Virus record (IMG/VR): IMGVR_UViG_3300017917_005083
Coordinates: 1 to 39,746 of that record
Strand: one strand, 5' to 3'
Source: a virus
Length of the DNA stretch: 39,746 nt
The translations under genes were made by a program, and so were the position numbers. Below the pieces are notes generated by a model, which saw only the letters and a list, made by a program, of their open reading frames with translations, had not been told where the DNA came from and did no database searches. Shown here piece after piece: positions 3,800 to 34,815 of the stretch. Position 1 is the stretch's first letter. Every line of letters starts with the position of its first letter.

Positions 3800-5131
3800 T
3801 TAATTTACAAATTTGCTTGTTGAAAACCCTTCAACAAGATCAACAAGAACTACACGCTTTGCATATTGTGAACCGTGTAGTTCTTTATTTTTATAATCAC
3901 TTCCTTTTACATACACATCAGGTTTAATTACAGACAAAATATTTTCTGGTGTATCTTCATCAAAAACTAAAATAAAATCAACAAATTCTATGGATTTCAA
4001 AACTTCTATACGAGACTCAAGTGGCAATATTGGTCTTGTCGTTCCTTTATTTCTCTTAATACTTGCATCTGAATTAATCGCAACACATAATTTATCCCCA
4101 TATTTTTTTGCTTCTTTGAGTGAATGAATGTGTCCTTTGTGCATAACATCAAAACATCCATTTGTCATTGCTAGTTTAAAATTTCTCATCGCAAGGAATA
4201 AAGGATTTGAAATAATTTTACTTTCAATATAGAAATCAGAAATACATAATGGTTGATTATATTTTCTTGAAACATAAATTCTTCCAGCCTTAAAAGCAAA
4301 CTTGAGAGATTGTTCTAAGGAAAATGAATTACCTAAACCCAAAGCTAGAAAACTCATAAAACAATCGCCAGCACCAATCACGCTTTCTGGTTTCTCGATT
4401 TTATTTGTCGGCAAAACTTTTATGTAACCTTCTTCATCATTCCAACCATATACTCCTTCGCCTGACTTTGTTATAATAACATTTTTGCAATTTATATTTT
4501 TAACTATTTTATTGATCTGCTTGGTAATATCTGTTTCGCCAGTAAGTTTACAAGCTTCATTATAATTAGGTTTGAATACAGTACAATTTCTCCATTTGCT
4601 CATATCATTTTTGGGGTCAACAAGAGATATATAGTCATCTGTAATTTTAATTTTTTTATTAAATAATCCTTTATCATAATCAGAAAAGATAACTACATCA
4701 CTTTCTGGAATCTTTATATTTTTTATAATGTTGTTGATATTGTTCAAACCATAATTTGTACTTTCAACATCCCATCTCATAATTGGATGGTCATCATGAT
4801 AAAATCTTTTCTTTACAGGAACATGACATGGATCTACAAAAAGTGAATAATCTGTATTTACTTTTTCTTTTTGAGTTATTTCTTTGGCATAAAAATTTAA
4901 TATTGAAATCAGATTTGTGTTAGTGTTTAAATATTTAAATTGAGTTGCAACATTTGAAGCTCCACCACATACGGTTTTGTAAGGACTTGAATTATATGAT
5001 CTCATTACAGGAATAGGAAACTCAGGACTAACTCTTGAAACATTTGTGCTATAATATTCATCAATTAAAGTGTCTCCAACAACTGTAACACTCAATTTTC
5101 TATTAAATATTGAATTAAATAATTCGTCCAT
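3800..5131 (-). CDS. hldE: Bifunctional HldE-like heptose kinase / adenylyltransferase
   Basis: The 443-residue protein has both halves of HldE, which makes ADP-heptose by phosphorylating heptose-7-phosphate at C1 and then adenylylating it. The N-terminal PfkB/ribokinase half shows GGASNVA near residues 56-62 and the catalytic GAGD at 253-256. The C-terminal nucleotidyltransferase half shows TNGCFDVMHKGH with the HxGH signature at 331-334, and STSK near the end. Length is close to that of bacterial HldE (about 480). An upstream extension is open but runs over the oppositely oriented neighbour, so I chose MDELF. The gene is isolated on the minus strand between structural genes, which suggests a later insertion. 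It could supply donor sugar to the GT9 enzyme at 12068. The exact sugar substrate is inferred. Confidence 0.9.
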   Translation of the reverse strand: MDELFNSIFNRKLSVTVVGDTLIDEYYSTNVSRVSPEFPIPVMRSYNSSPYKTVCGGASNVATQFKYLNTNTNLISILNFYAKEITQKEKVNTDYSLFVDPCHVPVKKRFYHDDHPIMRWDVESTNYGLNNINNIIKNIKIPESDVVIFSDYDKGLFNKKIKITDDYISLVDPKNDMSKWRNCTVFKPNYNEACKLTGETDITKQINKIVKNINCKNVIITKSGEGVYGWNDEEGYIKVLPTNKIEKPESVIGAGDCFMSFLALGLGNSFSLEQSLKFAFKAGRIYVSRKYNQPLCISDFYIESKIISNPLFLAMRNFKLAMTNGCFDVMHKGHIHSLKEAKKYGDKLCVAINSDASIKRNKGTTRPILPLESRIEVLKSIEFVDFILVFDEDTPENILSVIKPDVYVKGSDYKNKELHGSQYAKRVVLVDLVEGFSTSKFVN

Positions 5132-5133
5132 GA

Positions 5134-5141
5134 TATAAATA
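5134..5141 (+). promoter_or_regulatory. TATAAATA late-promoter-like box
   Basis: This is a perfect match to the T4 late promoter core TATAAATA, 18 bases before the ATG at 5160, with a GAGG ribosome site between. A sigma-like protein is encoded at 31646 in this window, which would fit phage-directed late transcription. Confidence 0.5.
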
Positions 5142-5159
5142 TAGTAGAGGAAAACGCAA

Positions 5160-6428
5160 ATGAACAACTTTTTTAATTGTGAAAAATCAATTGTAAAAAG
5201 AGATTTTTTAAAATTTCTTGAAGAAAAAAGAATAAATCCATCAGATTTAATTTCTTTATCATTTAAAATCAAAAAAATGACTCTAAATGAAGGGTTTGCA
5301 AGCGGATTAGGTGGTGCATTTAGAGGTATGTATCATGGTTTTGTAGCTGGATTAGGAACCAGCAACATCAATTACGGTGTTAGAACTCTACGAAAACAAT
5401 TAGATTTAGCTTATGAAAAGTTTTTAGACAGTCTTATTGGAATTTATGGTAACGAACCGAGAGCAGTAAGAATAGTTTCAGAATTACGAAGAAACGCTGA
5501 TGATGATATTGATGAAAAACTATTTGGTATGCAGAAAAAACAACCTATGCCTGAAGAACCTCAACCTGAAAAGAAAAATAAAGCACCATTACCAAGTAGG
5601 CCTGGCATTCCTGAAGAAGATAAAGAGTCTGGAAAAAATAAAGCCAGTGGTGAAGATTCGGGCAGTGGTGAAGATTCTGGCAGTGATGATGATTCGGGCA
5701 GTGATGATGATCTAGTTGGCACAGAACCAGATTCAGATGGTGATAAAAAAGAGAATAGTGATGAAAATGATAATGATTTTGAAAGTGCTGACCCTGATGA
5801 TAGTGAAGTGGATGAAGACAAATCTGAACAAATTTCAGAAATTTACAGACATGTTGCCAAAAATAAATCTAATATAATTAAAGATGCAATTGTAAGTGAA
5901 TTATCAGATTCTGGTTGTGCAAAAAGCGATACTCTTGAATTATTAGTAATAGCAATAAATAATAAGGTGGATCAAAAAGATTTTTTAACTAAATTATTTG
6001 CTATTTTAACAGACTTAGAAATAGACTACCACACAAAAAATAACGCACCATGTAAACAAAAAATCACAGATGCAAAACATTCAATTTCAGACCAAGCTAA
6101 AAGAATTCAAAGTTCAAGTCACAAAGGATCTGAGGTTGCTCCTGAAGATTATACACAAAAAATAACCTTAATTAAAAACAAATTTGCTAAACAAGTTTTT
6201 TACGATGAAGACAAATTTTCAAATGAACCAGTCATTGCAAACTTTTTTAACGAAAATTTTAGAAGAATATTTGCCGGAATTGCTGGAGTATCACCAGGCT
6301 CTATTAGAATGAAAGACGAAACTTTAATGGGAAGTGATGTTTATGTAAAAATTATAAATGAAGAAGGAAATTTTATAATTTTAAATAAACAAGATATGAT
6401 GAAAATAGCTGCTCATGAGGGATATTAA
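5160..6428 (+). CDS. Acidic Ser/Asp-repeat protein, probable virion protein
   Basis: This 422-residue protein is not recognised. The N-terminus has a glycine-rich amphipathic stretch (GLGGAFRGMYHGFVAGLG, near residues 48-65) that could contact membrane. A long disordered acidic linker follows, with SGSDDD repeats around residues 160-220, then a predicted folded C-terminal half. A GAGG lies suitably before the ATG at 5160; an internal ATG at 5277 (MTLNEGF) is an alternative. Like the two genes before it, it combines folded segments with Asp/Ser-rich spacers. I infer a late structural or internal protein. Confidence 0.7.
   Translation: MNNFFNCEKSIVKRDFLKFLEEKRINPSDLISLSFKIKKMTLNEGFASGLGGAFRGMYHGFVAGLGTSNINYGVRTLRKQLDLAYEKFLDSLIGIYGNEPRAVRIVSELRRNADDDIDEKLFGMQKKQPMPEEPQPEKKNKAPLPSRPGIPEEDKESGKNKASGEDSGSGEDSGSDDDSGSDDDLVGTEPDSDGDKKENSDENDNDFESADPDDSEVDEDKSEQISEIYRHVAKNKSNIIKDAIVSELSDSGCAKSDTLELLVIAINNKVDQKDFLTKLFAILTDLEIDYHTKNNAPCKQKITDAKHSISDQAKRIQSSSHKGSEVAPEDYTQKITLIKNKFAKQVFYDEDKFSNEPVIANFFNENFRRIFAGIAGVSPGSIRMKDETLMGSDVYVKIINEEGNFIILNKQDMMKIAAHEGY
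5646..5711 (+). repeat. 18-base tandem repeats encoding SG(E/D)D
   Basis: Three full 18-base units (5646-5663, 5664-5681, 5682-5699) and a partial fourth (5700-5711) lie in tandem and in frame. They encode SGEDSG or SDDDSG and form part of the acidic linker of the 422-residue protein. Confidence 0.85.
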
Positions 6429-7182: not shown

Positions 7183-7989
7183 ATGAGTTTTCCTTCAATA
7201 TATTTTGATGGCTATTATAGAGTTCTATCTCATAAACTAAGTCCAGAAGATACTAATATTCCGTATTTCGCATCGGCAAACTTTGCTGCTGCTCCAGAAC
7301 TTAAAGAAATTGATATGTCCTGGCAAAGTCACAGAATTCTGAATCAAAAGAATACTAGTTCTTGTGTGGCTCATGCTACTACTACTGGCATGGAGATTTT
7401 GTATAAGCAAAGACAAAATGTGAACGAAGATTTTAATCCATTTTTTATGTATGCGCTTATCAATGGCGGATCTGACGAGGGTGCATACATATCAGACGCT
7501 ATGGATGCAGCTATGAAATTTGGAATCTGCGAAAAAGATGCTATTCAATCAGATAGAGTGCTTTATAAAAATCAACTATCAAAAACATCTTACGAAAACG
7601 CATCCAGATTTAAATTGGAAAAAGCATATAGATGCACAACTTTTGATCAAGTTTGCCAAGCATTAAATCTAGGATTTGTAGTCAACATAGGAATTCTTGT
7701 GGGTAGTAATTTTGCTAGAGTTGATTCTGATGGGATCGCGCCTTTACCAAATGGTGGAGGTGGTGGTCACTCTATGCTTGCATGTGGGCTTAAAAAGCAT
7801 AGTAAATATGGATGGCTCGTAAAATTACAAAATAGTTGGGGTGAAAATTTTGGTCAAAAAGGTTATTGCTTTGTGAGAAAAGAACATTTTGAATACTATA
7901 GTAAATTAGACTGTTTTGCTTTCCAAGGTGTAATTGATGATCCGAAAGATCCAATTCCACAAGATGATGTTCCTACTGTAAAGGTGTAA
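7183..7989 (+). CDS. Papain-like (C1A) cysteine protease
   Basis: The 268-residue protein carries the catalytic elements of papain-family cysteine proteases: Cys61 in NTSSCVAHA, His196 in GGGGHSMLACG and Asn217 in QNSWGENFG. No prodomain inhibitor and no signal peptide are visible, so it is shorter than secreted cathepsins. A ribosome site AAGGAG lies 5 bases before the ATG. It sits two bases after an exported protein gene and is followed by a hydrophobic helical protein and a haem-binding-type protein. It could process virion proteins, attack host proteins or help lysis; the sequence does not decide. Confidence 0.88.
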   Translation: MSFPSIYFDGYYRVLSHKLSPEDTNIPYFASANFAAAPELKEIDMSWQSHRILNQKNTSSCVAHATTTGMEILYKQRQNVNEDFNPFFMYALINGGSDEGAYISDAMDAAMKFGICEKDAIQSDRVLYKNQLSKTSYENASRFKLEKAYRCTTFDQVCQALNLGFVVNIGILVGSNFARVDSDGIAPLPNGGGGGHSMLACGLKKHSKYGWLVKLQNSWGENFGQKGYCFVRKEHFEYYSKLDCFAFQGVIDDPKDPIPQDDVPTVKV

Positions 7990-8480: not shown

Positions 8481-8864
8481 ATGCGATCTATAATTGCTGT
8501 TAGTTTGTTTTTAGGCGCGACATTATTTGCACAGGAACCACCAGTAGCAAAGCATGTTACTGATGATAATAAGGCAAAGTTAAAGTCTCTTGTGTTTGAA
8601 CTTGACGAAGAAGAAAATCAAGCCAAGCTAAAGCAAGCTCACAAGAAAGACTGCGAAAAAATTATTAAAGATAATTGTTTTTCTTGTCACAACAACACTG
8701 CAAAAAATGATTCTATCAAATTGTTTGATGACAAAGATCAAGTCATTCTTCAAGATAATAAAGATTTGTTAGTTAAATTTACAGAAAATAACAAACAATA
8801 TGAGTACTGTAAGAAATTAGATGAAAAACACAATCTAAGAATTAAAAAGTATTTTGATAAATGA
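8481..8864 (+). CDS. Exported CxxCH (c-type haem) protein
   Basis: The 127-residue product has a signal peptide (MRSIIAVSLFLGATLFAQ) and one CxxCH motif (Cys66, Cys69, His70 in NCFSCHNNT), the site for covalent haem attachment in c-type cytochromes, followed by a helical, Lys/Asp-rich tail. Export is what cytochrome c maturation requires, which strengthens the reading. Two further Cys residues (near 58 and 112) could form a disulfide. A sixth haem ligand is not obvious. GAGGACAA precedes the ATG and the start abuts the previous stop. Its last bases overlap the next start (ATGA). A cytochrome-like protein in phage is unusual; a metal or redox role without haem is the alternative. Confidence 0.75.
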   Translation: MRSIIAVSLFLGATLFAQEPPVAKHVTDDNKAKLKSLVFELDEEENQAKLKQAHKKDCEKIIKDNCFSCHNNTAKNDSIKLFDDKDQVILQDNKDLLVKFTENNKQYEYCKKLDEKHNLRIKKYFDK

Positions 8865-9688
8865 AGTTTAGTATAATAATACTTTATTCATCTGATAGAA
8901 AAGCACAGTTAGAAAATTCCATAAAATGTTTATCAGAATCTTATAATTATGATAATGCAGAAAAAATAATTATATGTGATGGCAAATCAAACTTTACACA
9001 CCCTGACTGGACTGTATACGAAGTTAACAGAACCAAAAACTTTTATTGCTGGGCAGACACATTAAATTTTGGTGTAAAAATAGCAAAAAATGACATAATA
9101 ATATACATGGACTCTGATCGTGTTCTTCCTTTAAATTTTTTTGAATTATGTTGTAGTAATATTGAAAGCAATTCATTTGTATATCCAAAAAAATTATTCA
9201 AAATCAAAAAAGACTGTAATTTTGAAGAACTTAAAACAATAAGAGACAATTTTGAAAATTATAAATACTTACTTGAAGACGATCACAGGCATACAAATCC
9301 TTACAAACAAATAAGTGGAACAAATCCATTTTCTGGTTGTGTTTGTTTTTATCGTGAAGATTTTTTAAAATATGGCGGTTTCGATGATGAATTTATTGGT
9401 TGGGGATATCCTGATAGTGATTTTTTTATGAAAACTACCAAAAGTGGTTGTAAATTCATTTCTTTAGATATAAATGAATTACACCAAAAACACGAAAGAA
9501 ATATTTTAACATATGAATTTGCACTACACAATATATTTAATTTAAAAAAATATTGTGATAAATGGTCTATTGAAACAAATGAAATATATGAAAAATGCGA
9601 AAAACATAAAATTAAAATAAACGACTTAAATTCATCAAAAACATTACAAGAATTTTTAATAAAAACAAAAAAAATAAAAATATTTTAA
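8861..9688 (+). CDS. GT2-family glycosyltransferase
   Basis: The 275-residue protein has a GT-A fold signature: an N-terminal strand (SIIILYSS), the metal-binding DSD at residues 84-86 (IIYMDSDRVLPL), and the later SGCVCFYREDFLKYGGFDDE and GWGYPDSDFF segments typical of GT2 enzymes with a galactosyltransferase-like C-terminal part. It would transfer a sugar from a nucleotide donor in the cytoplasm. It overlaps the CxxCH gene by ATGA, linking the protease operon to the glycan island. Its stop shares the bases TTAA with the stop of the opposite gene. Confidence 0.85.
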   Translation: MKFSIIILYSSDRKAQLENSIKCLSESYNYDNAEKIIICDGKSNFTHPDWTVYEVNRTKNFYCWADTLNFGVKIAKNDIIIYMDSDRVLPLNFFELCCSNIESNSFVYPKKLFKIKKDCNFEELKTIRDNFENYKYLLEDDHRHTNPYKQISGTNPFSGCVCFYREDFLKYGGFDDEFIGWGYPDSDFFMKTTKSGCKFISLDINELHQKHERNILTYEFALHNIFNLKKYCDKWSIETNEIYEKCEKHKIKINDLNSSKTLQEFLIKTKKIKIF

Positions 9689-10617
9689 ACAAAACTTTTA
9701 ATTTTTTTTGTTATTTTAGAATTTAATATTCCTTGATAGAAATTATCTTTTCTTATCTTATCTTTAATACCAGAAGTGCTAATATATAAATGTGTATTTT
9801 TTATTAAATCAAGATTTTTTATTTTCATAGATGCTTCTTCTGCTGTTTCATAAAAAAATGGATATTCTTTTCCTAAGTATTCTTCAATTGCTGGCAACCT
9901 ATTTACTAATAGCGGAGTGTTTCTAGCCATACATTCAATAATTACATTGTTGGCACTACTATCAAACAAATTTAAAAAAACCAAATTTTTAGATAATAAC
10001 TTGTCATACTCTTCATTAGTTTTATTTTCTTCAAAATTTACTGTATTATTCACATTATAATATTTTGCTAATAAATCATATCTAAATATATTATCAGGTA
10101 ATTTTAAAATCTTTTTTTTATAAGATGTTTCCAAATCATAGAACGGCTGAAAATTTCGACACCAATGACCAATAAAATATACTGATTTATCATCGTTTGA
10201 TAAAAATTTATTCCACTCAAAAATTATATTTGGTACTTCTGTAGCATGATACACAACTGAAATATTAATTTTTTCACCAATTAAGGACTTTACAAACTTT
10301 GCATTATATTCAGATAAACAAAATATTCCTTTACACTTATTTCTGTTTTTATTCCAAGTTTCTGACTTAAACATTTTATCCAAATCAACATCATTTTCTT
10401 TCCCATAAAAAAACTCAATTGATCTGTTATGTTTTGGAACATTATGAGCAAATCCAACCCAGTATTTTGGTGCAATCATATTTTTTTTTATAAAATCATC
10501 TAAAGCATCTATCATCAACATTCCATCACTTGAATGCAATGATCTAATAGAATTCATGCAATAAGACCATCCTGACCTATGATGTTTCCAGTCTTGAGTA
10601 TTGCTTAAATCATACAT
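9685..10617 (-). CDS. GT-B (GT4-like) glycosyltransferase
   Basis: The 310-residue protein resembles GT4-type glycosyltransferases. The C-terminal Rossmann half has NVIIECMARNTPLLVNRLPA, the E-x7-E nucleotide-sugar region, and the middle has FCLSEYNAKFVKSL and SVVYHATEVP as in this fold. The N-terminal half is short, about 130 residues. It is divergent from the sulfotransferase gene with a 24-base gap and convergent with the GT2 gene. Sugar donor and acceptor cannot be inferred. Confidence 0.75.
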   Translation of the reverse strand: MYDLSNTQDWKHHRSGWSYCMNSIRSLHSSDGMLMIDALDDFIKKNMIAPKYWVGFAHNVPKHNRSIEFFYGKENDVDLDKMFKSETWNKNRNKCKGIFCLSEYNAKFVKSLIGEKINISVVYHATEVPNIIFEWNKFLSNDDKSVYFIGHWCRNFQPFYDLETSYKKKILKLPDNIFRYDLLAKYYNVNNTVNFEENKTNEEYDKLLSKNLVFLNLFDSSANNVIIECMARNTPLLVNRLPAIEEYLGKEYPFFYETAEEASMKIKNLDLIKNTHLYISTSGIKDKIRKDNFYQGILNSKITKKIKSFV

Positions 10618-10641
10618 AATAACTATTATAGTATTAGTTGA

Positions 10642-11349
10642 ATGAAAAAATCATACTTATCACCTTTATGGATATTATGCTTTCCTAGAACTGGTTCTTC
10701 TTATCTTTCATCACTACTAAATAACTTAAATTTATTCCCAACATTTAGTGAGTTGTATCCATGTGAATCATCTGTATTAAATAATGAATTAGGACCAACA
10801 AATAAAAATCAAGCTTTTGGTGAATGGATTCGTGTTTTTGGCAATAAGCATATATGCAAATATACAAAAGCTATAAATCATCAATTTAGTGATCATTTTG
10901 TTGCTGATGAAAAATTAATAAGAAATTTTTTAACTGATATAAAATTTATAAAACTTGTAAGACAAGACAAAATTGAGCAATCAGCATCCACATATATTGC
11001 AAAAAAACTAAATCAATATCATGTTTACAATGATATAATGTTACAAGAATACAAAAATAAAAACTTTGAAATTGATGAAAATGAATTGATTGCGATTCAT
11101 AATAAAATAATACAAGAACAAAACTTTTGGGATTTTATTGATGACAAGAATTGTATTAAAATTTATTATGAAGATTTTATAATAAACGAAAAAAAAGTCA
11201 TTACAAATATTCTTGAATTTGTAAGCATGGAAATTTCATCAGATAAAATTTATTATAGTATAAACAAAAGCAAAGAAAATATGAAAAAGATGAATCACAA
11301 TCTGAAAGAAGTTTGTAAAAAAATAATTACAAGCAAAATACTCTCATGA
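10642..11349 (+). CDS. Stf0-like PAPS-dependent sulfotransferase
   Basis: The 235-residue protein has the 5'-phosphosulfate binding loop of sulfotransferases near the N-terminus (CFPRTGSSYL, residues 13-22) and a 3'-phosphate binding segment (KLVRQDKIEQSAS, near 110-122), the pattern of the Stf0 group that sulfates carbohydrates using PAPS. IYYEDFI follows, as in that family. It is first in a chain of five plus-strand genes joined by overlaps, so it probably sulfates a glycan made by its neighbours. The acceptor is unknown. Confidence 0.82.
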   Translation: MKKSYLSPLWILCFPRTGSSYLSSLLNNLNLFPTFSELYPCESSVLNNELGPTNKNQAFGEWIRVFGNKHICKYTKAINHQFSDHFVADEKLIRNFLTDIKFIKLVRQDKIEQSASTYIAKKLNQYHVYNDIMLQEYKNKNFEIDENELIAIHNKIIQEQNFWDFIDDKNCIKIYYEDFIINEKKVITNILEFVSMEISSDKIYYSINKSKENMKKMNHNLKEVCKKIITSKILS

Positions 11350-12071
11350 TAAAAAACTTGTTGCATAATACTGAACCTTTCTTTGTTCATTTCCCGGGCA
11401 ATTCTTTTTTTTCTTGCTATTCACTAGAAATAAAAAAATATATAGAATCAAAAACTCAGGAAAATAAAAAACAAATGTTGGATTTTTGTATTATAACATG
11501 GAATTCAGAATATAATAAACAGAAAGGTATACTAGAAACTTCTTGCGAAAAATTTGGTTATGAATACAAAGTTTTAGGTATTGATTCACATTGGAAAAAC
11601 AACAGAGACAAAATAAATCTATTGTTAGAATATTTTTCAAATAATAACACTAATTACAAATATTTAATAGGTTGTGATTCATTTGATGTTGTTTGTGTAA
11701 GAAGATTAGATAACATAATTGAATTATTTAAAAATTTTGACTGCGACTTATTATTCAATGCTGAAAGAAGGTTTTGGCCACCTAGACATTTGCCAGAAAT
11801 AAAAGATTTTGAAAATTCGATAGCTCCAAAAAATGCATTTAACAAATATTTAAATGCTGGTTTGTGGATTGGAAAATATGATTTTTGTAAACACTTTTTC
11901 GCATATATAAAAACAATAGAAAAAGATTTAAATATAATGAAAGATTCAGAACAAATATTAATAAAACAAGGACATAAAAAATTTAATAAAAATATAAAAA
12001 TTGATTACAATTGTATTTTATTTCAAAATTTAAATTTACAAAATCATAAAAATATATTACTTAATATATGA
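11346..12071 (+). CDS. PLOD-like glycosyltransferase
   Basis: The 241-residue protein resembles the glycosyltransferase domain of procollagen lysyl hydroxylase (PLOD) and collagen galactosyltransferase-like enzymes, also found in large viruses. Visible marks are YLIGCDSFDVV with acidic residues at 111 and 114, FNAERRFWPP, and YLNAGLWIG. These enzymes transfer hexose from UDP-sugars to hydroxyl groups on proteins. It starts inside the stop of the sulfotransferase gene (ATGA) and ends inside the next start (ATGA). No lysyl hydroxylase domain is present. Confidence 0.75.
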   Translation: MIKNLLHNTEPFFVHFPGNSFFSCYSLEIKKYIESKTQENKKQMLDFCIITWNSEYNKQKGILETSCEKFGYEYKVLGIDSHWKNNRDKINLLLEYFSNNNTNYKYLIGCDSFDVVCVRRLDNIIELFKNFDCDLLFNAERRFWPPRHLPEIKDFENSIAPKNAFNKYLNAGLWIGKYDFCKHFFAYIKTIEKDLNIMKDSEQILIKQGHKKFNKNIKIDYNCILFQNLNLQNHKNILLNI

Positions 12072-12793
12072 ACATTTTAATAAATAAAAATAGACATCTT
12101 GGAGATGCAGTAGCCATAATAAACACAATACATAATATATCTTTAGAAAAAAATATTAAATTCAATGTATATGGAGCTTATTATCTGAAAGAGTTAACAG
12201 ATATTTTTGATTATTGCAATTTAAAATATTGTGGAATACCCGATGATGTATTTGAAAACAATTCATCTATTTCAGAATTTTTATTTATCAATAAAACAAA
12301 TGTTCCTTTTTTGTCAAATAGACATTTTTTTATTGATAATAAAATACAACATAAAATAAAAAAAATAGAAATGCCAAAAAAGAAAATAAAATCATGTAAA
12401 AAAAATGAAAATATTTTATTTCAATTTGATAGTAGAACTACACATGAAAATAAAATAAAAATTAATGATGAAAAAATAAATCGAATACTGTCATTAAAAC
12501 ATGAAAACTGTAATAAGTTTGGAGTTGGAGGAAAAGACACAAAACCTTACACAAATAAACAATTTATTTTAGGAAATATAAAAGAAATTTCAGAATCATT
12601 AAATTGTTGTAAATATTTTATTGGAATAGATAGTGGTGTTTCTCACATAGCTGGAACTTTAGAAATAAATGGACTAGTTTTAATCAATCATTTGTTGGAA
12701 CCACATTGCGAAGAATTAAAAATATTTTATCAATTATACTATACAAGTCTTGAAATAAAAAAAATATCCGAGGTTTTTCCAAATGAATTATGA
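12068..12793 (+). CDS. GT9-like heptosyltransferase
   Basis: The 241-residue protein has the marks of GT9 heptosyltransferases (WaaC/WaaF type): RHLGDAVAIINTIH at the N-terminus (Gly12-Asp13) and FIGIDSGVSHIAGTL around Asp188, where the DSGxxH region binds the ADP-heptose donor. It is shorter than the usual roughly 350 residues, so it is a minimal or diverged member. Its link to HldE at 3800, which would make ADP-heptose, is the strongest functional connection in the island. ATGA overlap upstream and an 11-base overlap downstream imply co-translation. Confidence 0.78.
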   Translation: MNILINKNRHLGDAVAIINTIHNISLEKNIKFNVYGAYYLKELTDIFDYCNLKYCGIPDDVFENNSSISEFLFINKTNVPFLSNRHFFIDNKIQHKIKKIEMPKKKIKSCKKNENILFQFDSRTTHENKIKINDEKINRILSLKHENCNKFGVGGKDTKPYTNKQFILGNIKEISESLNCCKYFIGIDSGVSHIAGTLEINGLVLINHLLEPHCEELKIFYQLYYTSLEIKKISEVFPNEL

Positions 12794-13349
12794 AAAAATA
12801 TCTTTATTTATGGATTTTGACGAAGCAATAACAAATACATATTGTATTGTTGATAATTTTTCTTTAAAATCAAAAGAAAAAGATGTGACAAATTCAGAAC
12901 TTTTTTTAGTGTATGATTTAATGAAAAATTTAAATATAAATAATACAATTATTGTTTCTGACAATGAAAATAGATTAACTTATTTTATTAAATCAATTTG
13001 TGAAAAAACAAAAATAATTAAAAATTTTGAAGAAATAGAAAATGAAAAAATTGATGATAATTTGAATAATTTTTTAATTTTTCAATCACTTAAACCATCA
13101 AGCTATAATGAAAAAAAATATGGATGGATGGAAATAATGGATTATTTTTGCAATATTAAAAATACAAATTTAATTCTTCAATTTAACTATACAGAAAAAT
13201 GTAAAAACATAATTTTAAATTATCATCAAACTTTATTAGTTAATGAATACAAAGTTCTTGTTGTAGATGAAAACATTCTAGCTAATTATTATTATTTTGA
13301 AAATAAAAAACAGTCATGTCCAATATTTGGATTAACTAAAATTATATGA
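12783..13349 (+). CDS. Unknown protein of the glycan operon
   Basis: This 188-residue protein is not recognised. The N-terminal LFMDFDEAITNTY faintly resembles a HAD-phosphatase motif I (DxD), and a later segment (NTIIVSDNENRLTYFI) could be a second strand of such a fold, but the remaining HAD motifs are not seen. Its start overlaps the GT9 gene by 11 bases and its stop overlaps the next gene by ATGA, so it belongs to the glycan operon. Confidence 0.65.
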   Translation: MNYEKISLFMDFDEAITNTYCIVDNFSLKSKEKDVTNSELFLVYDLMKNLNINNTIIVSDNENRLTYFIKSICEKTKIIKNFEEIENEKIDDNLNNFLIFQSLKPSSYNEKKYGWMEIMDYFCNIKNTNLILQFNYTEKCKNIILNYHQTLLVNEYKVLVVDENILANYYYFENKKQSCPIFGLTKII

Positions 13350-14293
13350 GAATTGCACACTTATGTCATTTCGGACCAAGAGCAAACATCATAATAAATC
13401 AAGGTTTATTTAATTCAAACATGGACTTTGATTGCAGTAAAGATTTTAGAACAACTAATAAAATTATAAAAAAAAGAAGTAAAGATATTATTTATAATTT
13501 AAAAAAGTATGACATTATTTTTTGTGGTGACAAAATTTTTTCTGCTGTTATAGATGCTCAACAAGTTTGGAATAAAATAATTTGGTACGATTATGAAGAT
13601 CAAACAAGCGTGGATACAAGCGTACTTCAAAATAGCTTAATTTACTTTAAACGATCTTTAGTTGATAAAGACAGAAACAGAATAGTTTATAATAAAAAAA
13701 TATATCCGATAGATTATTGTGCTTTAGATGAATATTATACAGACGAAATAGAAAAAACGATAAATATATCTTGTTTATTTGACAAACGAACATCTGGTCA
13801 AAGAAGAAATAATATTACTAATTTTTTAGAAAATGAAAACATTCCAAATTGTCAAATAGGGTTGGTAAGTGAAGATGGTTCTTACGGAAGAAATTCAATA
13901 TACAAGCCAAACAATAATTTCAAAAATTATATTCAAACACTAGCAAAAAGCAAGATAGTCTTTACTGCCTTTCCTGAACCTCATGATGGAGATTCAAGAA
14001 ATTGGGAGGCTTTTTCATCTGGTGCTTTGGTGTTTAGAGACAAAACTTTTATACAAAGTCCTAATCCATTGATTGATAGCAAACACTTTATTGAATTTGA
14101 TGCAAATAGTCATGAATCAATTCATCAAGCAATAAAAAAAGCAAAATATTTTTTATGTAATCATGATGAGCTAAAAACAATATCACAAGAAGGATTTAAA
14201 CATGTAAAAAAATATCATATGGCAAAAAACAGAATTTTTTATATGCTCGACCTTTTTAATCAGGTTAAAAAATCTAAAATTTATTATTTATAA
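13346..14293 (+). CDS. GT-B glycosyltransferase (Glyco_trans_1_2-like)
   Basis: The 315-residue protein ends with a typical GT-B C-terminal domain: GDSRNWEAFSSGALVF, a loop to EFDANSHESIHQAIKKA and a helical end (FKHVKKYHMAKNRI), as in the Glyco_trans_1_2 group used in spore, capsule and phage-encoded glycan synthesis. The N-terminal half is weakly conserved. It is the last of the five overlapping plus-strand genes and converges on the methyltransferase gene with a 20-base overlap of their 3' ends. Confidence 0.75.
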   Translation: MRIAHLCHFGPRANIIINQGLFNSNMDFDCSKDFRTTNKIIKKRSKDIIYNLKKYDIIFCGDKIFSAVIDAQQVWNKIIWYDYEDQTSVDTSVLQNSLIYFKRSLVDKDRNRIVYNKKIYPIDYCALDEYYTDEIEKTINISCLFDKRTSGQRRNNITNFLENENIPNCQIGLVSEDGSYGRNSIYKPNNNFKNYIQTLAKSKIVFTAFPEPHDGDSRNWEAFSSGALVFRDKTFIQSPNPLIDSKHFIEFDANSHESIHQAIKKAKYFLCNHDELKTISQEGFKHVKKYHMAKNRIFYMLDLFNQVKKSKIYYL

Positions 14294-17973: not shown

Positions 17974-18396
17974 TTACGCCATTACAGTAGCCTGGGCACC
18001 TGGTTGCGACGAAGTTGAACCTTGTGCAGAATTATTCCAGCCAGCTAATCCTTGAGTAAATATCTTATTCAAGGTATCTTCGTCAATATCTCCATTCAGT
18101 TCAATTTCATTAACTTTTCTACCATCTTTGTATAACATATTTGCTGGATTTTTGTTCACTAATTTAACACGATACATTTTTCCACCTGGTTTTGCATCAA
18201 GACTTATTTCCGCCGAGCCGATTTGATCAATTCCAAATACTGTTTTTGCTATTGCTTGAGCAAATACTGGACTAGATGAATTAATCATTTCTCCACGAAC
18301 AAACCTTGGATCAATATTCAACACACTAGTCAAGGCATCTAAATACGGTGCGTTCTTAGATTCTTCTGCTTCTAAAAATGTTTTAAATGAAATCAT
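17974..18396 (-). CDS. Capsid-targeting-leader family protein
   Basis: The 140-residue product starts MISFKTFLEAEE, the shared leader. The middle (about 25-110) is a mixed alpha/beta region without known motifs, and the C-terminus is low-complexity (Ser/Gln/Ala). No ribosome site is present; AATAAATA ends four bases before the ATG. It begins a three-gene minus-strand run (18396 to 17420) of small virion-type genes, with 9 bases to the next gene. Confidence 0.75.
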   Translation of the reverse strand: MISFKTFLEAEESKNAPYLDALTSVLNIDPRFVRGEMINSSSPVFAQAIAKTVFGIDQIGSAEISLDAKPGGKMYRVKLVNKNPANMLYKDGRKVNEIELNGDIDEDTLNKIFTQGLAGWNNSAQGSTSSQPGAQATVMA

Positions 18397-18400
18397 ATTT

Positions 18401-18408
18401 TATTTATT
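18401..18408 (-). promoter_or_regulatory. AATAAATA late-type box four bases before ATG
   Basis: On the minus strand this reads CAATAAATAAAATATG, with the start codon of the 140-residue leader protein four bases after the box. The spacing equals that at 15360 and 28976. Confidence 0.45.
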
Positions 18409-18431
18409 GTATCAAAGTAAATTTACAAAAG

Positions 18432-18439
18432 CATAAATA
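18432..18439 (+). promoter_or_regulatory. CATAAATA late-type box four bases before ATG
   Basis: The sequence CATAAATACTATATG places a near-consensus T4 late promoter (TATAAATACTAT) with the ATG at 18444 four bases after the box. It faces away from the similar box at 18401, so the two form a divergent late promoter pair. Confidence 0.5.
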
Positions 18440-18443
18440 CTAT

Positions 18444-19043
18444 ATGATAAACAAAAACAGAGAAATTATGTGTTTTGTTTGCAGTGAAATGCAACCAGAT
18501 TTAAATCAAATGCAAATGCATGTTGTTGACAATCATAGAGAAGGTGATGATTATGTTATTTGTCCATGTTGTAAAGTACCTGTAAGAGACTTAATTCCAC
18601 ACTACAGAAGCAAGCACATTGGAATGAAAATACCAGAAAATATACAAGTTAGAGCAATTATTTTAAGAGATGTACACAAAAACAGAAAACATAAGTTCAA
18701 ACAAGGTAGTTATATATCTCAAAAAACAAATCGTACAGTACAATTTAGAAGTGGATTAGAATTAAAACTATATCAAAAATTAGAGAAAAACTTAAATGTT
18801 AGAGATTACAGAGTTGAGAACATAATGATAGAGTATTTTTTTGATGGTAGGTCACACAATTACATACCAGATGTTCTTGTTGAATACACTAATGGAAAAA
18901 TAGAACTTTGGGAGATTAAACCAAAATCACAAACCAAATGGCCTAAGAATATTGCAAAATGGACAGCTGCTAACATTTATTGTAAAAAGCGCAATTGGGA
19001 GTTTATTGTCGTTACTGAAAATGCTCTTAAAAAACCTAAATAG
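18444..19043 (+). CDS. Zinc-finger plus gp4/TnsA-like nuclease
   Basis: The 199-residue protein has two C2H2-like metal sites (Cys10, Cys13, His26, His31 and Cys40, Cys43, His53, His58), then a nuclease domain of the PD-(D/E)xK type: Glu106 in RSGLELKLY, Asp143 in YIPDVLVEY, and Glu157 and Lys159 in LWEIKPK. The domain closely resembles T4 gp4, a head completion protein (RSNWEKFFFEWL, FFIEIKPK), and TnsA-type endonucleases. T4 gp4 has no such fingers. I chose 18444 from the late box; 18468, preceded by AGAGAAA, is an alternative and would leave the first finger intact. Probable role: trimming or sealing the packaged head. Confidence 0.72.
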   Translation: MINKNREIMCFVCSEMQPDLNQMQMHVVDNHREGDDYVICPCCKVPVRDLIPHYRSKHIGMKIPENIQVRAIILRDVHKNRKHKFKQGSYISQKTNRTVQFRSGLELKLYQKLEKNLNVRDYRVENIMIEYFFDGRSHNYIPDVLVEYTNGKIELWEIKPKSQTKWPKNIAKWTAANIYCKKRNWEFIVVTENALKKPK

Positions 19044-23590: not shown

Positions 23591-25876
23591 TCACCCAAGA
23601 AGGTCGTCAATTTCACTTTCGTCATCTTCATTTACATCAACAACATCTCCTTCACAAGTATAGTTTATTGCGTCCATGTGAGGATCTAAATATTTGTGAG
23701 ACTCCTCTTCATTCACGCAATCTATAAGCGATGGGAACTTATGCAAAACTTCTACAGGCACATCATTTCTTTCAGCTGACGATCTAAAAACAAATGGTTC
23801 CTCACCACAAAACTCTGGAACTACTAGAAACTTACCTGCACCTTGAGGTAATATTCTTCCTGCATCAATTAAAGCACCCAATAATCCACCAACAGGATTT
23901 ATTCCTTTGTCAAAATACAATGGAATATTATCAACCTCAACAAATGGCCGATGACTACGATTCTTTTTATTTTGAATCTTAATATTAATTCCTAAAATTT
24001 TCTTCTTTGCATAACCAGAAATTTTAGCTTCAATCTTCTTTTGTGTCTGAGAACGCATTCTAAGACTTGCATAAAATGGTAATCCCTGACCACCAGCTGC
24101 TGTGGTTTCTGGAGAATTGTGTACGACTGCTCCATCAACAACATAAGTGTGATTATCCTCAACTGTTATATCGAATTTAACTTTTGATTTTGTTGGTGGT
24201 TTAATATGAATATTTAATATTTCTGATTCTTGAATACCGTATTTAATAGATGTTTCATCAATATCTTCAATTTCGTAATCAAAACTATTTCTAAAATCTG
24301 GATGAAGTTTATATGACATAGATGGATGCACAAATTTTGAAATTAAAGAATGCAATTTGTAAGTGTTTTCTGAATCAAACACAAGACCTTTATCTGTAAG
24401 TTTTGATGTCAGATCAAATTTTTTCTTTAAAGCATTTTGTATTTTTTGTCTGTTAGAAAATTTCATACAACATATTGCTGATTTGCCTTTACCCCATTTA
24501 GCATAACTCCCCGCAAATGTGCCATCATCCTGATACCATATTGCCAAACCAAGAACATCCAAATTATTTATAACTTCATCTGGAATTATGCAATCTTTGC
24601 AAGACACACCTTTTTGTCTTGGTGAATTCCTAAATTTCAATCCGTTCAATTCACACATTGGAATTGTATCAAATCCAACACGCCTTTCTTCTGAATACGA
24701 ATATCCAATCCAAGGATTTAGTATAGATTCTTTCCAACGACAATATTCTGTTTGCTTAATTCCGTGATTAATCCGCAAATGATTGCAGGAATGATTTTTT
24801 CTCAAAGATCCATCACCTAAAATAGAACCATAAACAATTTGTTTTTGGCTCTCTGTCAAATATTTAGGTTGTATTTGAACCAATTTGTCTCCTAATTTCA
24901 ATTCTCCAGCTGGTTTTTCAACAATATTTCCATTTTCATAAACAAAAAGCATATGGTTGGAAGTACAACCAAATTGTGTCACACCATTGCCCCATGTTTT
25001 TCTTGCTGTGAATTGTAGAAAATGCTCACCCTTCTTCAAATTACCATTTTTGTGCCAAGCTACAACTTTCTTGGCTTCAATTTTTCCATTTTTTGGATTA
25101 TAGGATAAAACTTTTACAGGAAGTTTTTGGTTTACAATTTTACCAATCTTCATGGTTGTTCCATCTTCAAGCATAACTCTACTTGTATAATGGAAACAGC
25201 CATACATAACGCCAATCTTATCTCTAATTTGATTCAGAATTACAACTGTAACATCATTCTGTTCCATCTCTGTGTTTAACTTACGCAATTCTTTTGAACA
25301 AATCTTGGCTCGTTCTCCAGGTTGTTCATTGGCTCCTACAATTCGCTTAAAATCAGCTTTTGTATATCCCTCTGGCAATTGCGTCTCTCTCAACTCTCTA
25401 GCACTCGGAGAAACTGAAATTGAATCGTATAAGATTACAACAGGCACAGTAAGTTTCTTTTTCTCTCGCACATATTCAATAATTCTGTACATGGTTCCAA
25501 AACAATCTTCAAGAGTAACTGGTGTATATCTTATAATTTTATTAATATCGCATTTTGTTGCATTTTGAATAAATTCACCATTGATAGCATTTTCAGTATC
25601 AAGAATTACTCCTATGCCCCCTAATTTTTGAACTCCTGCTAATATGTTCATTCCAATCAAACTTTTGCTTGACGCGCTGGGTCCATAAATTTCAGTAAGT
25701 CTGCCACCTGGAATTCCACCAGTAGCAAATTTTCCACTACAACAATAGTTTATTGCTAAGTTTCCAGTATCTATAAAATATTTTGCAACATCAAGTTCAG
25801 CGACTACCTTGGCACCCGTATCTGATGCCATTTGTGAGAAAATATCGTCAACTGAGTCTTTCTTTGGTCTTGCCAT
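23591..25876 (-). CDS. uvsX: UvsX/RecA-like recombinase interrupted by an intein
   Basis: The 761-residue precursor would splice to a 400-residue recombinase. The first 226 residues hold the RecA/UvsX ATPase core, with Walker A GPSASSKS (65-72; T4 UvsX has the similar GPSKSFKS), VILYDSISVSPS as Walker B and LNQIRDKIGVMYG. The C-terminal 174 residues resume with SPETTAAGGQGLPFYAS, the L2 DNA-binding loop of RecA, and end in an acidic tail (DEDDESEIDD-like), as in gp32-interacting recombinases. The ATG at 25876 is preceded by AAAGGATT; an upstream TTG is less likely. It forms presynaptic filaments for recombination-driven replication. Confidence 0.95.
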   Translation of the reverse strand: MARPKKDSVDDIFSQMASDTGAKVVAELDVAKYFIDTGNLAINYCCSGKFATGGIPGGRLTEIYGPSASSKSLIGMNILAGVQKLGGIGVILDTENAINGEFIQNATKCDINKIIRYTPVTLEDCFGTMYRIIEYVREKKKLTVPVVILYDSISVSPSARELRETQLPEGYTKADFKRIVGANEQPGERAKICSKELRKLNTEMEQNDVTVVILNQIRDKIGVMYGCFHYTSRVMLEDGTTMKIGKIVNQKLPVKVLSYNPKNGKIEAKKVVAWHKNGNLKKGEHFLQFTARKTWGNGVTQFGCTSNHMLFVYENGNIVEKPAGELKLGDKLVQIQPKYLTESQKQIVYGSILGDGSLRKNHSCNHLRINHGIKQTEYCRWKESILNPWIGYSYSEERRVGFDTIPMCELNGLKFRNSPRQKGVSCKDCIIPDEVINNLDVLGLAIWYQDDGTFAGSYAKWGKGKSAICCMKFSNRQKIQNALKKKFDLTSKLTDKGLVFDSENTYKLHSLISKFVHPSMSYKLHPDFRNSFDYEIEDIDETSIKYGIQESEILNIHIKPPTKSKVKFDITVEDNHTYVVDGAVVHNSPETTAAGGQGLPFYASLRMRSQTQKKIEAKISGYAKKKILGINIKIQNKKNRSHRPFVEVDNIPLYFDKGINPVGGLLGALIDAGRILPQGAGKFLVVPEFCGEEPFVFRSSAERNDVPVEVLHKFPSLIDCVNEEESHKYLDPHMDAINYTCEGDVVDVNEDDESEIDDLLG
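24116..25198 (-). other. Intein with LAGLIDADG endonuclease in UvsX
   Basis: The 361-residue insertion starts with Cys (CFHYTSRVMLEDGT, block A) and ends VVHN before Ser, the standard His-Asn/Ser splice junction. Block B is TSNHMLFV, and block F ITVEDNHTYVVDG precedes the end. Two LAGLIDADG helices are visible, VYGSILGDGS and LAIWYQDDGT, each with an acidic residue where the catalytic one sits, so the homing endonuclease may be active. The insertion falls inside the L2 loop between MYG and SPETT, so splicing is required for UvsX function. Confidence 0.95.
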
Positions 25877-25910
25877 CTTACAATCCTTTGAGAACAAGAT
25901 ACCCAAAAAT

Positions 25911-31645: not shown

Positions 31646-32203
31646 TCACTCAAACAGAAAATCATGTTCAGAAAGCGAAACTTGACCAACACGAATCGCT
31701 TTTTCCTTGGTTATCTTTTTACCAAGAAATCGGCTTGCGTTCCAGATGATTTTTTTGGCATAAATTTTGAATTTTGTATTTACCAAGATATGTCTCGATT
31801 TGAGAGGGATTTCATCTTCTGGAATGAATTTCTTAGCTAAACTTTCTAGTATCTCCTCTTGATCTTCGCCAAATTTCCTTTTATATGCACCGTGATGTGT
31901 TTTCTTACTCCATAAATACTGAAGACTTTTGTTTACATTATGCCAGATAATAGCATCTTCAGGAATGTACTTATTCAGCAATTCAAATACTGATTCGATC
32001 CAAGTTTGTCGCTTGTAATATGACCCAGCACGAATAACAGAAAGTAATAATTCCTGCTTGAAATCATCAATTTCATGTTGGTGATTGTTCTTGCAGTTAT
32101 TTTGCATCAATTGCCAAGACACGAAATAACAAAGCTGACTAAATTCCTTTTCTAAAACTTCGTACTCATCGGAAGATATAGCAAATTCTCTGAATGGGTT
32201 CAT
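31646..32203 (-). CDS. Possible sigma-factor-like protein
   Basis: The 185-residue protein has EFSQLCYFVSWQLMQNN, then HEIDDFKQELLLSVIRAGSYY, a pattern like sigma70 region 2.1-2.2 (DDLxQExxLAxxxAxxxY). Similar short proteins in T4-like phages are annotated as sigma-like or late sigma (gp55) proteins. The rest is helical and basic. The call is tentative: region 2.4 and region 4 are not clear. AGGAGG gives a strong ribosome site, and a promoter with perfect TTGACA lies upstream. A late sigma factor would explain the TATAAATA-type boxes seen in this window. Confidence 0.5.
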   Translation of the reverse strand: MNPFREFAISSDEYEVLEKEFSQLCYFVSWQLMQNNCKNNHQHEIDDFKQELLLSVIRAGSYYKRQTWIESVFELLNKYIPEDAIIWHNVNKSLQYLWSKKTHHGAYKRKFGEDQEEILESLAKKFIPEDEIPLKSRHILVNTKFKIYAKKIIWNASRFLGKKITKEKAIRVGQVSLSEHDFLFE

Positions 32204-32253: not shown

Positions 32254-33561
32254 TTAATTTTTTATTTTTGTCATTTTATTCAAATACCTACCTACTTTAC
32301 CTTCAGCAAACAAAGTAAGTCCAGGTATAACATCTAAGTTCTCCTGTAGCAAACTTTTGACACTATAAAAGACTTCCCTAGCCTTGAACTTTGAAACTGA
32401 AATACAATACGCATCATAGACGGAATATAAAACTCTGTAATCAAATGCATTTTTTTTATCAACAAGTTTATTAAGCACAACTTGGTTTATAGTTGCTGTG
32501 CTTGACTGAATAATAAAATTTCTGGATTTGAAAATTTCATCTTGAGCAAAATGTCTTATTCTTCCAAATTTATCACTTAACTTACTATTTACCTTTGCTT
32601 CATTTTGTGAAGTTTCAATATAGTGAAATGATTTATTAAACTCAGACTTTAAATTTGATATAATATCAACAGAAGTTTCATATCCAAGAGAAAAAACTTC
32701 GGCTAAAGTTTTTGCACTCATTCCATAAATAACTGGTAAAAAAATGTTCTTACCATACTTTCTAAAATTACTACTTTCTAGTGGCATAATGATCTTACCA
32801 ATTCTTTCATATGGATCATCACCATTTGCAAACATCATAAGCAACTTTTCATCATTTGATAAAGCTGCTAAAACACTTAATTCCATAGCTCGATAATCAA
32901 AATTTATAAACACTTCATTTTCATAAGGATTAACAAGTTTATCTTTAGCTTCATAATCAAGAGTATGTGGATTGTAATTTTTACTGGATAAAACCTTAGT
33001 ATTCAGCCTACCATTTTCTTGCCCCTCAATGATGTAAAAAGGATAAACTTTTTCAGCATTATCATCGTTTATAAGAAACTGATTTTCAATATATGGAATA
33101 GTTGAACAAATTAACTTTTGAAAAACATTTTTGTATATGTCTAAAACATTAGACTTACACATAGATATAAAAGTTCCAGCTACTTCAACTAAACTTTCAA
33201 AATTTTTATTATTTTTTTGTCCAATATAAGATTTAAACCAACAAATATCGAAAACATATAAATTATTTAAACCATTGGAATTATGTTTCAAACAAAAACT
33301 TTGAAATGATTTTGCTTCATTGAAAACAATAGGTTTTTTATATTGATCTAATGAAAAATTTATAAAGTTTATAACAGTGTGCAGGTTTGAATAGTTTAGT
33401 TTTATTAAAATGTTTGTACCTTTAACACCTAGAATTGTTAGTTCAAGTTTATGATCAAAAATTGATACAGAATTTTGAGAGTTTGAATAATCGAAGTACA
33501 AAAATGGTTCAGTTTGGAAAGCTTGGATAATTCGGGAATATAAATTAAGGTCTTCGGACAT
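32254..33561 (-). CDS. Compact family A DNA polymerase
   Basis: The 435-residue protein is the palm and fingers of a Pol I-type polymerase. Motif A has Asp222 in INFDYRAMELS; motif B has Arg267, Lys271 and Tyr279 in FRKYGKNIFLPVIYGMSAK, with the same spacing as E. coli Arg754, Lys758 and Tyr766; motif C has Asp383. NGRLNT precedes motif A as in this family. Motif C reads VYDA instead of the usual VHDE, a notable change. The N-terminal 190 residues look like a degenerate exonuclease-like or thumb region. The longer open frame upstream runs through hairpins; the ATG at 33561 (MSEDLNL) is preferred though no ribosome site is clear. Confidence 0.85.
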   Translation of the reverse strand: MSEDLNLYSRIIQAFQTEPFLYFDYSNSQNSVSIFDHKLELTILGVKGTNILIKLNYSNLHTVINFINFSLDQYKKPIVFNEAKSFQSFCLKHNSNGLNNLYVFDICWFKSYIGQKNNKNFESLVEVAGTFISMCKSNVLDIYKNVFQKLICSTIPYIENQFLINDDNAEKVYPFYIIEGQENGRLNTKVLSSKNYNPHTLDYEAKDKLVNPYENEVFINFDYRAMELSVLAALSNDEKLLMMFANGDDPYERIGKIIMPLESSNFRKYGKNIFLPVIYGMSAKTLAEVFSLGYETSVDIISNLKSEFNKSFHYIETSQNEAKVNSKLSDKFGRIRHFAQDEIFKSRNFIIQSSTATINQVVLNKLVDKKNAFDYRVLYSVYDAYCISVSKFKAREVFYSVKSLLQENLDVIPGLTLFAEGKVGRYLNKMTKIKN

Positions 33562-33668
33562 AAAGAAAAGTTTAAGCACAAAAAAATCATTTGTCAAACA
33601 CAATTTTGTCAGCGATTGGCACGGCGTTTGCTTCGTGCGTGCGCGGATAGTACTTAGTATTATAATAT

Positions 33669-33701
33669 GTCTACTAATGCTCCTGCGGAGCATTAGTAGA
33701 C
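33669..33701. repeat. 15-base perfect palindromic hairpin
   Basis: GTCTACTAATGCTCC (33669-33683) and GGAGCATTAGTAGAC (33687-33701) are perfect inverted copies with a three-base loop TGC. No T run follows, so it is not a simple terminator. Confidence 0.95.
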
Positions 33702-33722
33702 GCTTGGTACTTCGTACCAAGC
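33702..33722. repeat. 9-base perfect hairpin adjoining the first
   Basis: GCTTGGTAC (33702-33710) and GTACCAAGC (33714-33722) with a TTC loop directly abut the preceding hairpin with no spacer base, so the two stems could stack. Confidence 0.95.
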
Positions 33723-33788
33723 ACTAGATTTAACTTTTTGATAAAATTACTTTTCATTACTTTTCATAATGTTTCTTAGTACTATCTA

Positions 33789-33807
33789 AGTACTACTAAG
33801 TAGTACT
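33789..33807. repeat. 8-base hairpin made of AGTACT units
   Basis: AGTACTAC (33789-33796) and GTAGTACT (33800-33807) with a TAA loop. AGTACT itself is palindromic and also occurs at 33649 and 33778. Confidence 0.85.
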
Positions 33808-33942
33808 AGCGCGTGGAAAAAATATCTCTTTTGTAGCAAATACATCAGAACAAACCATCATGAAACAGCGACTTGACTCTGAATTACGATCAATGGATCT
33901 GTTCATCCATTTAACTTCAATGAGAACGCTTCAAATTTTGAT

Positions 33943-34018
33943 TTTAAGGGCCAAATTGTGTTTCAGCTTAGGCTCAACCCAAAAGTGTTTAAATAGACCC
34001 CTTAAACAAAAAATTTGG
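33943..34018. other. Two crossing inverted repeats (switch-like)
   Basis: TTTAAGGG (33943-33950) can pair with CCCTTAAA (33999-34006), while CCAAATT (33951-33957) can pair with AATTTGG (34012-34018). The two pairings cross, so they would form either a pseudoknot or two alternative folds. This lies in the less A/T-rich part of the non-coding region. Confidence 0.4.
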
Positions 34019-34077
34019 GCCTCTTGATTTTTGTGACTTGAGAGATTACCTTACCATGAACGAGCAAAGATTATTCT

Positions 34078-34099
34078 TGAGGTATGTTTTTTTACCTCA
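34078..34099 (+). promoter_or_regulatory. Stem-loop 17 bases before gene at 34117
   Basis: TGAGGTA (34078-34084) pairs with TACCTCA (34093-34099) around a T-rich 8-base loop. It ends 17 bases before the ATG of the plus-strand gene and could affect its translation, whose ribosome site (GATGAG) is weak. Confidence 0.4.
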
Positions 34100-34116
34100 G
34101 AGTGTGATGAGTTGTC

Positions 34117-34815
34117 ATGATTCCAAAAGTTTACACAGCTTCATTTCAGGCAATTGAAAAATATTGCAAAGATGACACAATTAGATTTTTATATGAGTTG
34201 TGTATATTTTTTATGAATTGCGAGTTTTTTTACTTTCCACATATTACACATACAAAATTTAATGCAGCTAAAAATCCAACAAAACAATTTCTGTATAAAA
34301 ATATTAAAAAAATGTTTGAAAAATATAAAGATAAAATCAGCAGTCAAGAATTTGTAGGATTTATAAAAGCACAATTTGAAATATTTAAACTTAACGAACA
34401 ACACAGTCCATTAATAGGACCACATATATTACATTCTAAAGCTTCAGAATATAGATATATCATTTGGTTAAGATTGGTAGCTGAAAAACAAATCATGGAA
34501 AAAGATAATAAAGTGGAGGTTACAAACAAGTATATCGACTGTTCTATGAAATTAACAAAATTTAACATTGATAAAATTTTTGGTCCGACATTAACCTTTG
34601 AGGATTATAAGAAAAATATAAGAAAAATTCTGCTTATGGTAAAAGCACATCAGTTATGTATTTTTTATTGTTACTGTAGCAGATGGATTAAAAAATTGCC
34701 TCAAGAAATTTTGGAAGAAATACAAAAATATCATAATTTTGGAGCTTTAGAAAAATGTGATTACATAAAAATACAAAATTCATACGATAAATTTTTTGAA
34801 TATGAGAAAAATTAA
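34117..34815 (+). CDS. Helical protein, unknown
   Basis: The 232-residue protein is helical, Lys- and aromatic-rich, with Cys residues clustered near the C-terminal third (HQLCIFYCYCSRW). No leader and no known motif. It is the only gene reading away from the hairpin region, transcribed opposite to the polymerase. Its stop shares TTAA with the next gene on the other strand. Confidence 0.65.
   Translation: MIPKVYTASFQAIEKYCKDDTIRFLYELCIFFMNCEFFYFPHITHTKFNAAKNPTKQFLYKNIKKMFEKYKDKISSQEFVGFIKAQFEIFKLNEQHSPLIGPHILHSKASEYRYIIWLRLVAEKQIMEKDNKVEVTNKYIDCSMKLTKFNIDKIFGPTLTFEDYKKNIRKILLMVKAHQLCIFYCYCSRWIKKLPQEILEEIQKYHNFGALEKCDYIKIQNSYDKFFEYEKN

Follow-up and report, generated by a model that had tools for sequence, protein, structure and literature searches.

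A conserved hairpin element between diverging genes of a huge-phage relative as a candidate replication origin

We analysed the whole of a 39,746-base IMG/VR virus record (henceforth the window), which derives from a relative of the huge phages. In the phage collection, LR756511.1 (595 kb) comes closest, its DnaB-like helicase being 34% and its family A DNA polymerase 27% identical to those of the window. The polymerase gene (henceforth pol) and a plus-strand gene (henceforth the plus gene) are divided by a non-coding region whose extent in a preliminary description of this DNA proved exact (Table 1). Along with pol, genes for a DnaB-like helicase, a gp32-like SSB, and UvsX-like and UvsW-like proteins are neighbours of the gap. 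A model of the plus-gene product gave structural matches without weight (best Z 2.7), and the highly conserved protein encoded beyond pol matched sigma region 2 at a Z of about 5-6, a value that unrelated helical bundles reach as well. Elsewhere in the window, the UvsX/RecA-like gene (23591-25906) harbors an intein with a LAGLIDADG endonuclease domain; a single protein (3800-5272) joins PfkB kinase and cytidylyltransferase domains and resembles the bifunctional HldE of heptose synthesis; glycosyltransferase-like and unassigned genes lie in a run (8861-14293), with 8861-9688 matching glycosyltransferase families; one gene encodes a papain-family cysteine protease (7183-7989); and another (18387-19043) encodes a zinc-finger-like N terminus followed by a TnsA-like endonuclease domain.

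Table 1. Features of the gap and its flanks (window coordinates).
Feature	Position	Strand	Remarks
Highly conserved protein	31646-32203	minus	weak similarity to sigma70-family region 2
Family A DNA polymerase (pol)	32254-33561	minus	435 aa; ATG at 33561
Sigma70-like promoter of pol	33559-33597	minus	TTGACA, -10-like TTAAAC region; ends beside start codon
Conserved non-coding gap	33562-34116		555 nt; pol (minus) and plus gene diverge from it
Sigma54-type motif, TTGGCACGGCGTTTGC	33616-33631	plus	points into the hairpins; exact to TGGCAC-N5-TTGCT counting the next base
Hairpin 1	33669-33701		perfect 15-bp stem; loop TGC (minus strand GCA, C-GNA-G type)
Hairpin 2	33702-33722		perfect 9-bp stem abutting hairpin 1; loop TTC (minus strand GAA, C-GNA-G type)
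A/T-rich stretch	33723-33774		tandem ATTACTTTTC x2; sequence different in every relative
AGTACT-type repeats	33775-33812		three, 10-11 nt, with the 8-bp hairpin; private to window
8-bp hairpin	33789-33807		perfect; loop TAA
Putative -12-side half-remnant of second motif, GCAAATAC	33838-33845	minus	-24 side lost; picked out by eye
All-helical protein (plus gene), no assigned function	34117-34815	plus	conserved; diverges from pol in every close relative

The three hairpins of the preliminary description, with 3-base loops on the first two, are all present and all perfect. The whole window holds three triloop hairpins with stems of at least 8 bp, all inside the gap. The 15-bp hairpin is far beyond chance, the mean number of such stems per window in 20 mononucleotide shuffles being 0 (0.85 for stems of at least 9 bp), while the 8-bp hairpin alone is unremarkable, since the shuffles yield 2.45 stems of at least 8 bp. 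The segment 33600-33820 folds with a z of about -7, as RNA (either strand) and as DNA alike. The crossing inverted repeats noted earlier do exist (33932-34022), but the segment around them (33815-34116) folds only at shuffle level (z -0.9 and -0.6). The hairpins also lack T runs, as had been stated (ACTAGATT follows hairpin 2), and an intrinsic terminator is ruled out, there being no T run directly behind the hairpins in the window or its relatives. A MITE or other mobile repeat is likewise ruled out, since each contig has a single element and this always lies between pol and the plus gene. An exact search of viral contigs with the 33-nt palindrome gave no match, comparison of the gap with annotated phages found no DNA similarity, and no Rfam 15 family matched the window or its relatives at the gathering score.

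The simple repeats fared less well than the hairpins. AGTACT does occur four times in the gap (at 33649, 33778, 33789, and 33802), but these copies are private to the window rather than conserved in relatives, and only their clustering is unusual, because the window total matches expectation (7 observed versus 6.8 expected). The tandem ATTACTTTTC (33746-33765) is also present, but the relatives do not share it. A protein-binding array built on these two repeats, one of three functions proposed for the region, is thus unsupported, because both are private to the window. So is an imperfect outer inverted repeat (77%) formed by 33775-33812 and 33641-33662. The A/T-rich stretch might act as an unwinding element. 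Just before the plus gene (34078-34098) lies a small hairpin (TGAGGTA/TACCTCA, T-rich in the loop), which is absent from the relatives.

Single-protein scans with pol and with the plus gene alone found no relatives. Alignments that paired two proteins encoded nearby with the corresponding proteins of LR756511.1 led to 80 and 36 viral loci, among them eight distinct relatives (L005/L006, L008, L009, L010, L011/L012, L013, L014-L017, and L018/L019), contig fragments that are mutually non-independent. In all eight, pol and the plus gene again diverge, from a gap of 439-526 nt (439-555 nt with the window included), and in each the parts follow the same order from pol: a motif described below, a hairpin, a second hairpin, a stretch rich in A/T, and the motif again in inverted orientation. 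Hairpin 1 is perfect (13-16 bp), and hairpin 2 abuts it directly or follows close after, with stems of 9-22 bp across the relatives and the window. Beside the second motif of L008 (about 3335-3440) lies an iteron-like array of about ten AATTAAACC units, which the other relatives lack.

The stem sequences differ between relatives, yet the two neighbouring hairpins persist. With the alignment of hairpin 1 anchored at its apex, 117 of 117 cells are paired, 47 of them with double-sided changes; 12 of the 13 pairs changed on both sides and none changed one-sidedly, and shuffled or slid alignments fall far below these values. Hairpin 2, in the longer form that six relatives have, shows 96% of cells paired, with eight double-sided pairs and no one-sided change. 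The compensatory changes that the preliminary description had proposed to look for in relatives are therefore there; the loss of the stems in close relatives, which it had named among its refuting outcomes, does not occur, and this covariation argues for selection on the hairpin structures themselves. Helices in RNA commonly change by way of G.U pairs; hairpin 1 has none (0 of 117 cells), which, together with the absence of one-sided change in hairpin 2, argues for selection at the DNA level. The loops are also shared. That of hairpin 1 is TTC in the relatives and TGC in the window, giving C-GAA-G or C-GCA-G on the minus strand, and thus a C-GNA-G triloop on that strand in all nine types. Hairpin 2 has the same loop type in the window, L005, and L008, and most others hold GCTTCGC, the complement of GCGAAGC. 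In phage N4, the C-GNA-G closing pair and the G..A are needed for hairpin extrusion (PMC4496689).

The most conserved part of the element is one that the preliminary description missed: TTGGCAYRNNNNTTGC, a match to the sigma54 (-24/-12) promoter consensus, TGGCAC-N5-7-TTGCT (PMC12316311). The left, pol-side motif lies 44-54 bp from the pol start in all nine types and is directed through the hairpins. The relatives bear two convergent TTGGCAYRNNNNTTGC copies, 201-261 bp apart (the second copy of L011 ends in TTGT), and the window keeps the pol-side motif whole and only half of the second, inward-facing copy. The 18 distinct sites are most informative at TTGGCA-C-G and at TTGC; the spacer between them varies, the sequence upstream is rich in T, and many sites share a TTCGTGCG tail beyond the sigma54 boxes. 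Exact matches in 13 contigs (12.5-111 kb) occur at this element only, as two convergent copies in ten contigs and one copy in the window and the L011/L012 contigs. More distant kin (11 records, 2.87 Mb) showed five scattered hits, none paired. The motif with a TTCGYGC tail was also seen in unrelated viruses (loci L120-L136), where chance would give a few, and in the unrelated contig L123 (6756-6826) TTGGCATGNNNNTTGC is repeated and inverted, followed by TTCGCG. The fit to the consensus suggests recognition by sigma54, with an RNA start from TTGGCACGGCGTTTGC predicted at about 33643. As to who would supply the factors, the phage contigs contain no Sigma54_DBD match over the cut-off and no convincing activator gene (AAA matches were weak and partial only), and a host search through genome contigs found no relatives. 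Nor did we find a described case of sigma54 promoters in lytic phages in the open-access literature.

A promoter aimed through two hairpins could simply belong to a non-coding RNA gene, in which the sigma54-type promoter would drive a small structured RNA containing both hairpins and the second promoter, where kept, would run antisense. The strong RNA folding (z about -7) and the presence of the left motif, aimed through the hairpins, in all nine types agree with this folded-RNA proposal, and a structured RNA becomes more possible because a sister clade (L020, L021, L100/L101, and L119) conserves in the same gap another sequence, RNA-like and about 330 nt long. That sequence, ACCGGGNGGCRGG ... 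GGTTCCCGTATTACCTAATGGG ... GCAGGGAGTACCGC (L100:4613-5018 and L021:3155-3560, both minus), has no Rfam match, and its core is single copy in the four contigs where it was found. The hairpins themselves speak against an RNA product: the pairing pattern described above lacks G.U and one-sided change, and the loops are triloops (C-TTC-G / C-GAA-G), not the tetraloops that are common in RNA. Moreover, there is neither an Rfam match nor a shared terminator, and the inverted-repeat flank precedes the point where the RNA is predicted to begin. Folded RNA thus stays a rival, though an unlikely one.

Could the gap instead be a shared regulatory region of the divergent genes, each sigma54-type promoter sending a long-leader transcript to the gene on the far side? 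The convergent geometry does set each promoter upstream of the far gene, and the left motif keeps its fixed distance of 44-54 bp from the pol start. We scanned for a sigma70-like pattern, TTGAC[TA]-N16-18-TANNNT with its end immediately ahead of a start codon, and this marks the pol start in five of six contigs (the window, G001, G002, G004, and G008, hence four of five relatives) and the plus-gene start in two (G006 and G008). Its support comes from position, because the number of hits, one to eight per contig, is not clearly above that in shuffles. Since pol has a sigma70-like promoter of its own, the element is probably dispensable as a basic pol promoter, and regulation alone would leave perfect hairpins without G.U unexplained, so that we regard a purely regulatory role as quite improbable.

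We next turned to strand composition. Once gene direction is allowed for, GC skew at third positions shows an upward step at the element in eight of nine contigs (permutation p 0.000-0.069), which are related fragments, the exception being a contig with four genes on one side; in several contigs, positions other than the element fit the step better (9 of 105, 15 of 90, and 51 of 93). In pooled bins of minus-strand genes, skew is negative throughout on the left side and mostly near zero or positive on the right.

Taken together, the skew, the single copy, the polymerase and helicase neighbours, and the extrudable hairpins make a replication origin the best reading among the three functions first proposed: the hairpin cluster would be the central part of a cis-acting DNA element present in single copy, and this element most likely the phage replication origin, a reading to which we assign a probability of about 0.5. 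Support for the origin comes also from the conservation of position and architecture in the eight distinct relatives, from the confinement of the motif to the element, from the signs of DNA-level selection in the stems, from the separate promoter of pol, which leaves the element free of that task, and from C-GNA-G loops of the kind that favours extrusion in N4. Of the parts of a T4-type origin, a promoter-type motif is present, as is an A/T-rich stretch, whose sequence is not conserved. Against the origin stand the lack of a whole second motif in the window, the lack of any such gap between pol and the plus gene in LR756511.1, the unrelated sequence in the sister clade, the better-fitting skew positions elsewhere, and the lack of a sigma54 or activator gene in the contigs. 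In LR756511.1 the place of the gap is taken by a 387-aa gene of no assigned identity (L003:15204-16367). Another kind of DNA transaction site (for packaging, recombination/resolution, or binding of an unnamed initiator), its likeness to sigma54 promoters coincidental, would suit the inverted-repeat boundaries, the palindromes, the single copy, the missing sigma54 and activator genes, and the TTCGTGCG tail common to many sites, but is hardly favoured by information peaks at both boxes, which are spaced exactly as for sigma54 and have T-rich sequence before them, by adjoining replication genes in place of a terminase, or by an inter-copy spacing that varies over 201-261 bp, and we hold it to be improbable.

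If the element is an origin, RNA polymerase with sigma54 from the host, or else a phage protein that recognises this sequence, would start short transcripts that run into the hairpins and the A/T-rich zone. Negative supercoiling would extrude the hairpins, and the opened DNA or an R-loop would allow the phage DnaB-like helicase and polymerase to load and leading strands to begin. In the relatives the convergent motif pair could launch forks both ways, and in the lineage of the window initiation would depend on the left promoter. More tentatively, as a possibility that we consider doubtful, the element may represent a class of huge-phage origins switched on by host sigma54 RNA polymerase, in which convergent promoters fire into the hairpin pair and prime bidirectional replication; if true, copying of the phage genome would be tied to an activator-controlled host sigma factor. 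Huge-phage replication has so far been read mainly from GC skew (PMC7162821). As a candidate origin the element is compact, conserved, and present once, its parts can be recognised, and it is open to cloning and testing; a sigma54-type sequence within it would link phage replication with a host regulator.

Three known systems offer comparisons. The early promoters of phage N4, extruded hairpins with stems of 5-7 bp that are read by the virion RNA polymerase, share with the element C-GNA-G loops of 3 nt, which favour extrusion when the DNA is supercoiled, but the stems here are longer (9-22 bp), there is one locus rather than several promoters, and a virion RNA polymerase is not known here. Bacterial sigma54 (-24/-12) promoters have the same TGGCAY-N5-TTGC boxes, spacing, and T-rich upstream flank, whereas here the boxes are putative promoters that form a convergent pair around hairpins in a phage. 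At oriF and oriG of phage T4, a promoter and an unwinding element together produce an R-loop, from which the leading strand is primed (PMC3016281). Like these origins, the element places a promoter-like sequence beside A/T-rich DNA, and the phage has gp41-, gp32-, UvsX-, and UvsW-like genes; unlike them, it has a sigma54-type rather than a MotA/sigma70 promoter, two perfect hairpins, a merely postulated R-loop, and, in the relatives, a convergent promoter-type pair.
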